DNA of 64,000 bases from an uncultured Pelagibacteraceae bacterium (GTDB lineage: Bacteria > Pseudomonadota > Alphaproteobacteria > Pelagibacterales > Pelagibacteraceae): assembly GCA_902527415.1 (NCBI GenBank), contig CABZPD010000002.1:1-64000 (forward strand), written 5' to 3'. A program made the translations under genes and the position numbers. Positions 14,039-15,939 of the stretch are shown here, piece by piece (position 1 is the first letter of the stretch; every line of letters begins with the position of its first letter). The notes under the pieces are model-generated. The model worked only from the letters and a program-made list of their open reading frames with translations, did not search any database and was not told the DNA's origin.

Positions 14039-14066
14039 TTGAAACAATAAAGATTTGTATTATAAA
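14039..14066 (+). promoter_or_regulatory. Sigma70-like promoter upstream of tRNA-Met 5' fragment
   Basis: TTGAAA (14039-14044), 16-bp spacer, TATAAA (14061-14066), 15 bp before the tRNA fragment. Confidence 0.55.
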
Positions 14067-14079
14067 CCATTTATCAATT

Positions 14080-14120
14080 AAGGCGGGGTAGCTCAGTTGG
14101 TTAGAGCGCGGGACTCATAA
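14080..14120 (+). repeat. Left direct repeat (att-like): tRNA-Met 5' half fragment
   Basis: aaggcggggtagctcagttggttagagcgcgggactcataa, identical to 15861-15901. Confidence 0.93.
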
Positions 14121-14203
14121 AATAAAATTCAACCGTCATTAGTTAAAATTCATTGTAAAATAACAAAAATTTTTTTAATTTTTTATCATTTTTAACCAAC
14201 CAA

Positions 14204-14223
14204 GAACCATTTCTGAACCAAAT
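14204..14223 (+). repeat. Left GAACCA pair: GAACCATTTCTGAACCAAAT
   Basis: GAACCA at 14204 and 14215 (11-bp period); matches GAACCAAATCTGAACCAAAA at 15837. Confidence 0.75.
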
Positions 14224-14409
14224 TTATTTATTATTTTTTTTTATAAATTTGATTATAGTTTTTTTATTTTCCTCTTGTGGTTCAAGAGGTTTCTCCCATA
14301 GATCTACTAATGACTGCGTTATTGGTCCTGTAGGTCCACCTTTTTCCATTATGGTATCGTACATAGTTTCTAAGATACCTTTTTTATTATTTGATTGATT
14401 GTTTTTCAT
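14224..14409 (-). CDS. Hypothetical small protein in the mini-island
   Basis: 61 aa; strong SD (AAAGGAGAAAAATG on the minus strand). Confidence 0.55.
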   Translation of the reverse strand: MKNNQSNNKKGILETMYDTIMEKGGPTGPITQSLVDLWEKPLEPQEENKKTIIKFIKKNNK

Positions 14410-14522
14410 TTTTCTCCTTTAGCGTTGTGTTTAAAGTCCCAGCAAGTAGAGTTAATTTCTAAATCAGGACTAAGAAATTTTACTATATTTACTAAAAATT
14501 AAAAAGCACTTAAAATAAATTC

Positions 14523-15725
14523 ATGGAAATTTGGGGATGGATTATTCTAATTTTTTTCACTTTTTATGTTCTAGGAACAATTCATGATTTTATACAAGAA
14601 AAGAAAAATTTAAAAGAAAGAACAATAGCCGATCTTGCTGCCGAAAAAAGACTTAAACAAGAAAACAAACAGACTGAATTATTAAATAAAAAAGCCAAAC
14701 TTTATAACGAAAAGGCTTTAATCCAAAAATTAATAAATAAAGCAAATTTAAGCATTCAAGATACAAAAAAAATTAAAGGAAATAACAAAGCTAGAACTTG
14801 GTTCTCTGCACTATATGCAGAAACACAAGCTTTACTTGATGATTACCAGGCTAATTTATTGTTAATTAAAAAAAGACCTTCGGTTAGAGGATCAGAGCAA
14901 GTTCAACAAATTAAGAGAGAGAAAAGAGAACTTAATAAAAAATTAAAAGTTTTAGAATACCAATTGAAAACTTATGAACAATATTTTCCAATAATTGAAG
15001 ATTTTAAAGATTATATATTGGAGGATGATTCTTTTTTAATCCAATCTGATGGTACTGTAGGACAAGAACAAGATTTTGATCCTGCTCAAAAGTATCTTAA
15101 GCCAGAGGAATTTAAAAAACTTCCAGTTGATAAAAAAAACCAATTAGCCTTAGATAGATATTTATCTAAAACTCACTCAAAATTAGAAATAGGAAGATTT
15201 TATGAAAGATACATTGGTTATCTTTATGAAATGGAAGGCTGGACTGTAAAATTTTTTGGAATAATTGAAGGTTTTGATGACTTAGGAAGAGATTTAATTT
15301 GCAGTAAAGGTAACGAAATTCATATTGTTCAAACTAAAAATTGGTCAAAGTTTAAAACAATTAGAGAAAAATATATGTATCAACATTTCGCCACTACGAT
15401 GCATTATCAATTGACAGAAAAAATTAACAAAAAAACTAAAGTTAAACCTTATTTTTTTGCAACCATTGATTATTCTGACATGGCCAAAAAAGTTGCTAAA
15501 GCACTTAAAATTGAGATCAAAACTGAGAAACTAAAAAAAGATTATCCTATGATCAAATGCAATATAAATCCTGGCACTAAAGAAAAAATTTATCATTTAC
15601 CTTTTGATCAACAGTACGACAAAATAATAATTGGAAATACTTCTGGTGAGTTTTATGCAAAAAGTGTTAACGAAGCAGTTAAGAAAGGATTCAGAAGAGC
15701 ATTTAGATATAGAGGTCCAGCGTAA
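14523..15725 (+). CDS. Membrane-anchored coiled-coil protein with Mrr-like PD-(D/E)XK endonuclease domain
   Basis: N-terminal TM 'WGWIILIFFTFYVLGTI', Lys/Glu-rich coiled coil, then 'GRFYERYIGYLYEMEGWTVKFFGIIEGFDDLGRDLICSKGNEIHIVQTKNW' (D...QxK core). Confidence 0.7.
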   Translation: MEIWGWIILIFFTFYVLGTIHDFIQEKKNLKERTIADLAAEKRLKQENKQTELLNKKAKLYNEKALIQKLINKANLSIQDTKKIKGNNKARTWFSALYAETQALLDDYQANLLLIKKRPSVRGSEQVQQIKREKRELNKKLKVLEYQLKTYEQYFPIIEDFKDYILEDDSFLIQSDGTVGQEQDFDPAQKYLKPEEFKKLPVDKKNQLALDRYLSKTHSKLEIGRFYERYIGYLYEMEGWTVKFFGIIEGFDDLGRDLICSKGNEIHIVQTKNWSKFKTIREKYMYQHFATTMHYQLTEKINKKTKVKPYFFATIDYSDMAKKVAKALKIEIKTEKLKKDYPMIKCNINPGTKEKIYHLPFDQQYDKIIIGNTSGEFYAKSVNEAVKKGFRRAFRYRGPA

Positions 15726-15732
15726 TTCTTAA

Positions 15733-15763
15733 TAGAGCGCAGGATACACTAAGCAACGCTCTA
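15733..15763 (+). terminator. Stem-loop after endonuclease-like gene; also resembles a degenerate tRNA D/anticodon-arm segment
   Basis: TAGAGCG (15733-15739) / CGCTCTA (15757-15763); no long U-tract. Confidence 0.35.
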
Positions 15764-15772
15764 GAAAATTAA

Positions 15773-15800
15773 TTGATTTTGAAGTTGATTGAATTATAAG
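15773..15800 (+). promoter_or_regulatory. Candidate island-borne promoter for the intact tRNA-Met
   Basis: TTGATT (15773-15778), 16-bp spacer, TATAAG (15795-15800). Confidence 0.4.
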
Positions 15801-15836
15801 ACTTGCTAAATTGTTCAGATATTGAGATTTGTTGAT

Positions 15837-15856
15837 GAACCAAATCTGAACCAAAA
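15837..15856 (+). repeat. Right GAACCA pair: GAACCAAATCTGAACCAAAA
   Basis: GAACCA at 15837 and 15848 (11-bp period), 4 bp from the right direct repeat. Confidence 0.75.
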
Positions 15857-15862
15857 CGTCAA

Positions 15863-15939
15863 GGCGGGGTAGCTCAGTTGGTTAGAGCGCGGGACTCATA
15901 AGCCCGAGGTCAGTGGTTCGATCCCACTTCCCGCTACCA
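15863..15939 (+). tRNA. tRNA-Met (CAT anticodon), CCA encoded
   Basis: Full cloverleaf: acceptor GGCGGGG/TCCCGCT, D-stem GCTC/GAGC, anticodon loop CTCATAA, T-arm AGTGG-TTCGATC-CCACT, 3' CCA. CAT could in principle be tRNA-Ile2. Confidence 0.92.

Follow-up and report, generated by a model that had tools for sequence, protein, structure and literature searches.

An integrase-less mini-island in the tRNA-Met gene of a Pelagibacteraceae bacterium, with ends resembling pelagiphage attachment sites

Structure of the island and its insertion site

The window, by which we mean the whole 64,000-nucleotide stretch of uncultured Pelagibacteraceae DNA analysed here (contig CABZPD010000002.1), contains a tRNA-Met gene directly preceded by a small island whose ends are marked by two exactly equal 41-bp direct repeats spaced 1,781 bp apart (Table 1). 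Each copy comprises two upstream A residues and the first 39 nucleotides of the tRNA gene, and stops at the last base of the 7-nt anticodon loop (nucleotides 33-39 by gene index, canonical A38), exactly where the sequence-only reading of this DNA had placed it; about 1.6e-13 such repeats are expected by chance in 64 kb. Between the copies lie two plausible ORFs, of 400 aa on the forward strand and 61 aa on the reverse strand. The description of the island as ~1.78 kb with two plausible genes and no integrase agrees with both the ORF list and a six-frame HMM search, which found no integrase in the island and detected all of its positive controls (the integrase-bearing loci L201, L081 and L079 described below). 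PF00589 has no match in the source genome, which is 75% complete, and the island was found to have neither satellite functions nor genes for packaging, capsid or replication. A recombinase hidden in the 400-aa gene was ruled out, as the C-terminal domain of its product is PD-(D/E)XK-like.

Table 1. Positions in the window of the island, its attachment features and its target gene
Feature	Position	Strand	Remark
Promoter-like TTGAAA/TATAAA, 16-nt spacer	14039..14066	+	Consensus resemblance only; empty-site alignment
attL core: displaced tRNA-Met 5' fragment (2 nt + tRNA nt 1-39)	14080..14120	+	Exact repeat
Anticodon-loop 7-mer CTCATAA, left copy; putative strand-exchange (overlap) region	14114..14120	+	Within sole stretch common to all island-family cores
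Left arm-site pair GAACCATTTCTGAACCAAA; two GAACCA 11 bp apart	14204..14222	+	+83/+94 from core
61-aa ORF	14224..14409	-	Weak or no family matches
SAM-II (SAM_alpha)-like leader ahead of 61-aa ORF	14403..14480	-	Below Rfam gathering score
400-aa cargo gene, predicted Mrr-like PD-(D/E)XK nuclease	14523..15725	+	
35 nt identical to L081 attP flank	15821..15855	+	81-nt match including core, 94%
Right arm-site pair GAACCAAATCTGAACCAAA	15837..15855	+	-26/-15 from core, register as in three phage contigs
attR core: restored tRNA-Met 5' half	15861..15901	+	Exact repeat
Intact tRNA-Met, anticodon CAT	15863..15939	+	

A relative, G022, shares with the window the gene order gcvT-like gene, 69-aa ORF, tRNA-Met, phosphoribosyltransferase and guaC, and carries an empty site from which the island is absent. 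Fusing the flanks of the window across a single repeat copy reproduces this site: the repeat and the tRNA agree in full and the flanks differ by isolated substitutions only, from which it follows that the insertion was precise at the anticodon loop and that the restored 5' half of the tRNA is island-derived. The comparison with relatives that the sequence-only reading had recommended therefore yields a clean empty site, and its claim of site-specific insertion in tRNA-Met is upheld. The promoter-like element, which lies upstream of the tRNA at the empty site, stands here ahead of the displaced fragment only.

The same reading had named two findings that would speak against it, namely a lack of variable sites among relatives and a simple local tandem duplication; instead, we find the empty site in G022, variable islands at the locus and phage-like arms. 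Direct repeats at both ends would also be left if the tRNA locus had been duplicated locally in tandem, or if assembly or amplification had gone wrong, but duplication cannot produce the island, given that the enclosed 1.74 kb is missing from G022 and that arm sites matching phage attP lie at both ends, and we regard this explanation as scarcely credible.

Cargo of the island

The 400-aa protein has a hydrophobic helix at its N terminus, a long stretch of coiled coil and, at its C terminus, a Mrr-like PD-(D/E)XK domain (approximately residues 205-395). Homologs of this domain are Pelagibacter proteins of ~190 aa with 44-49% identity; Mrr_cat is matched by six of the homologs (best 8.9e-13), although not by the 400-aa protein itself. 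Residues D257, Q270 and K272, corresponding to the catalytic D...QxK motif, are invariant, which places the domain with the PD-(D/E)XK/Mrr_cat nucleases. The AlphaFold model of the protein is of moderate confidence overall (pLDDT 69) and better over the nuclease domain, and the nearest PDB matches to the predicted fold are the nucleases MspJI and EndoMS (best E 1.8e-3); a PDB sequence search with the same protein returned coiled-coil matches only. The protein is predicted to be a membrane-anchored Mrr-like nuclease, for which a role in anti-phage defence is plausible. No PADLOC model was matched by the island cargo. Homologs of the nuclease domain at other loci (L263-L268) have a tRNA-Thr or tRNA-Val nearby and a conserved neighbour gene of 112 aa, in what appears to be another SAR11 variable locus.

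The leader ahead of the 61-aa ORF scores 23.3 bits against the SAM-II (SAM_alpha) model, compared with an Rfam cut-off of 36. It is conserved at 29 other loci, with scores of 23-30 bits for the leaders L231-L260, and also precedes a 55-60 aa ORF, unrelated to the 61-aa ORF, in some of the islands described below (family B) and at other SAR11 loci. This 55-60 aa ORF is present in 67 of 399 Pelagibacter genomes. A putative SAM-sensing micro-ORF is thus seen riding on islands that are seated in a methionine tRNA.

Attachment signals shared with pelagiphages

On both sides, the core of the island is flanked by paired GAACCA arm sites 11 bp apart, and the two pairs were combined into a single pattern, GAACCANNTCTGAACCAAA, for scanning genomes and viral contigs. 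Exact matches in 197 Pelagibacterales genomes were confined to the two ends of the island, with none for the controls, and five matches were found in 2.9 million viral contigs. In two of these, L081, which belongs to a 33-kb contig, and L079, the arm motif adjoins a tRNA-Met 5' half beside a tyrosine integrase (412 or 421 aa), and a third contig, L058, found through the tRNA half alone, combines an identical 41-bp core with a GTACCA arm variant and a 417-aa integrase. Core identity to the island is 100% over 41 bp for L058, and ~97% for L079 and L081. The GAACCA motif is also present in the three remaining viral contigs (L080, L082 and L083), but these lack a tRNA core and resemble chance matches.

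The arrangement of the arms is shared as well as their sequence. Half-sites at -26/-15 from the core occur in all four of the island, L081, L079 and L058, each with a second pair across the core. To the right of the island's genes lies the stretch that resembles L081 (Table 1); a comparison of the 63-nt right flank with 319 genomes of the genus gave nothing similar, the next best match scoring 34.6 bits against 114. On the integrase side, the phages carry pairs near +131/+142, and L079 and L058 also have one near +65/66, whereas the second pair of the island is its only one there. The island thus has the design of an HTVC028P-like attP, with a tRNA 5' half up to the anticodon loop, the -26/-15 pair and a second 11-bp pair opposite, but with that second pair displaced and the middle site absent. 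Because the displacement of 48 bp does not correspond to whole helical turns and the +65 site is missing, the attP of the island may be impaired.

That L081 is pelagiphage DNA follows from its alignment to the isolate HTVC028P (70% identity across 53% of 7.2 kb), whose host is HTCC1062. HTVC028P itself carries, upstream of its own integrase, a 5' half of tRNA-Asn(GTT) that ends at the anticodon loop (L269, 3589-3628) and is probably, to judge from this layout, an attP of the same design. The duplication of the 5' half had been taken in the sequence-only reading as a sign of non-autonomy, a view that must be abandoned, since integrase-bearing pelagiphages use the same half of tRNA-Met, and HTVC028P the 5' half of tRNA-Asn. 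The HTVC028P-like phages in question (proposed Ubiqueviridae; L081, L079 and L058) share with the island the tRNA-Met 5'-half core, the arm motif and its register, yet they are genomes of ~35 kb with an integrase and virion genes, whereas the island has att arms and two unrelated genes only.

As the island has no recombinase of its own and its ends carry the attachment signals of SAR11 viruses, it is probably moved by a borrowed phage integrase. Our preferred reading, which we hold to be likely, is that 14080-15901 is a non-autonomous integrative element whose two ends make up an attP for a tyrosine integrase of the pelagiphage L081/L079/L058 group, acting in trans. The integrase would be supplied by an infecting or resident HTVC028P-like phage, would bind the GAACCA arm pairs and would swap strands within tRNA-Met, across the 7 bp of its anticodon loop. 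Upon integration the host 5' half would come to lie beside the left end of the element, while the element's own 5' half would rebuild the tRNA at the right end; the junction of the excised 1,781-bp circle would consist of the right arm GAACCAAAACGTC, the core and the left end CATAAAATAAAATTC. We infer this binding, and likewise present mobility and a route of transfer. The earlier proposal of a non-autonomous element is supported by the empty site, by the other small integrase-less insertions at the locus and by the occurrence of the core and arms beside phage integrases, and its mobilisation in trans is probable.

Relatives of the L081-type integrase group are rare in hosts (one at 34% identity and one marginal match among 300 genomes), and besides the island no further member of its family, which we term family A, was found in the sampled genomes. 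Pelagibacter genomes carry approximately one tyrosine recombinase of 304-334 aa each, at a recurrent variable locus (L059-L066, L068, L069, L072 and L073). This ~317-aa recombinase is unlikely to be the helper, because it sits at that other locus, where there is no tRNA-Met gene.

Islands at tRNA-Met and their place among known elements

Many insertions at tRNA-Met occur across SAR11 genome and single-cell contigs, and the search for other insertions suggested by the sequence-only reading has brought to light further small islands at this gene. Of the 21 islands examined, an integrase is absent from 20, which measure 1.1-5.1 kb. Family B, with the arm motif TTGGTCCACTGGTGGTCCAC, has at least 10 islands, and families C, D and E are distinguished by GATCACA, TTGACACACATATGACACAC and GCTCCAATAGTGCTCCAATG, respectively. 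Family F is represented by a 2.6-kb tRNA-Met island (L201, 5021-7651) that encodes an integrase of 314 aa, bears TTGTGACA arm pairs and is a minimal autonomous counterpart of the integrase-less islands. The displaced part of the tRNA is the 5' part in families A, B, C and F and the 3' part in D and E, and the cores of all families share just one stretch of the tRNA, namely the anticodon loop plus two adjacent bases, which is what strand exchange across the loop would predict. Arm-like pairs were present upstream of tRNA-Met in 35 of 142 contexts, against 4.6 expected, in a set partly enriched by selection. Within family B the ends are conserved (mean identity 92% on the left and 77% on the right) and the cargo is unrelated (40%, near random). 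Nuclease- or defence-like cargo is found in several islands, including HNH, type IIG-like helicase and GajB/UvrD-like proteins. Viral-contig scans recovered no phage with the arms of families B to E, and comparison of the family B left end and the family E right end with phage records gave no meaningful match, so that the helper link is documented for family A only.

Several other arrangements were observed at or near these sites. In the single-cell contig CACAIU010000007.1 of AG-897-P04 (L148 and L120), one tRNA-Met has an island on either side: that at the 5' side is 778 bp long, with a single gene of 166 aa that appears HNH-like by eye, and that at the 3' side measures 4.8 kb. Two genomes (L224 in G077 and L222 in G120) carry family-B arrays of three or four arm-site pairs, mostly at or just before a gene start, with one 214-aa module common to both, in what looks like the stacking of cassettes. 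A nearly identical element encoding a trypsin-like protease, with the promoter and 5' part of tRNA-Met, lies between a hisE-like gene and dctM, outside an intact tRNA-Met, at ~8519-10051 in L054 and L055 (G011 and G027), and may mark a secondary site or a relic.

The main rival to a phage-mobilised element is a decayed, CIME-like remnant of an HTVC028P-like phage that has lost its integrase and all phage genes, leaving attL, attR and passengers, and that is immobile or moves only through the tandem integration of an incoming element. CIMEs, the cis-mobilizable elements of ICEs and IMEs, are defined by attL and attR flanks with the genes for integration and transfer absent (PMC5704250), and the island fits this description; moreover, its right arm is nearly identical to that of L081 and its left arm shortened and diverged, as decay might leave them. 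However, beyond the right end, which is 94% identical to the phage attP flank over 81 nt, we find no phage gene or other convincing phage sequence, and the nuclease domain of the cargo has Pelagibacter relatives. The island also differs from CIMEs in matching a phage and not an ICE, in its very small size, in that none was seen in tandem with a functional element, and in belonging to families that recur and whose ends are conserved. The same minimal layout is seen in at least five families at tRNA-Met, and family B keeps its ends while changing its cargo, so that repeated independent decay is hard to credit. On the absence of phage sequence past the arms and the recurrence of the layout, we disfavour this reading and consider it unlikely.

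Alternatively, the island might spread solely when the chromosome on either side of it undergoes homologous recombination, as after transformation or generalised transduction, with the att arms as passive traces of history. We think this quite improbable: the island sits precisely at the anticodon loop, its flanks are colinear with the empty site, unrelated families converge on one 7-bp loop, and the terminal arm pairs have been kept.

If the island is instead a phage-mobilised element, it may be one of a class. We propose, with the case for and against about evenly balanced, that SAR11 genomes harbour attP-only cassettes (0.8-5 kb, with one or a few genes, several of them nuclease-like) that mimic phage attP sites, land in the anticodon loop of tRNA-Met and are moved wholly by pelagiphage integrases in trans, the families being keyed by arm sequence to different integrases. 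Phage satellites (P4-like, PICI, PLE and PICMI) and tycheposons resemble the island in being integrative and helper-linked, a link that the match of its att sites to phage sequences suggests for the island, and often have anti-phage or niche cargo, and tycheposons likewise use tRNAs in marine bacteria. To our knowledge these elements, as described, carry their own integrase or recombinase. The island, by contrast, has neither an integrase or recombinase of its own nor the hallmark tyrosine recombinase, and no packaging, capsid or replication genes.

Islands of the kind collected by Islander are similarly marked at their ends by a tRNA gene and a displaced fragment in the same orientation, and include anticodon-centred sites, with a 5' fragment in only 159 of 3,919 islands (PMC4383910). 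The Islander filters demand an integrase gene and a length of at least 2 kb (PMC4383910), and so would reject an integrase-less island of 1.78 kb. CALINs and MITEs are also non-autonomous and depend on a recombinase in trans (PMC11389934); unlike them, the island targets a tRNA and has an attP of the tyrosine phage type that includes arm sites, and neither attC sites nor terminal inverted repeats were noticed. Non-autonomous elements moved in trans are thus already known in the form of CIMEs, CALINs, MITEs and satellites (PMC5704250, PMC11389934), and Methylophilaceae have additive islands whose tRNA ends are repeated (PMC10872708). No account of attP-only mini-islands in SAR11 turned up among open papers.

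SAR11 bacteria are among the most abundant cells on Earth. Their streamlined genomes contain few recognisable mobile elements, yet even closely related cells differ in their flexible genes. This gene turnover would have a concrete mechanism if SAR11 possessed a set of att-only mini-islands matched to the integrases of pelagiphages, and the demands of standard island finders for an integrase and at least 2 kb would explain why such islands escape notice. If the proposal is true, attP-only cassettes would provide a minimal, recombinase-free means of exchanging anti-phage and other genes among streamlined genomes, and the small islands that phages would be spreading, some of which encode predicted nucleases, may work against phages.
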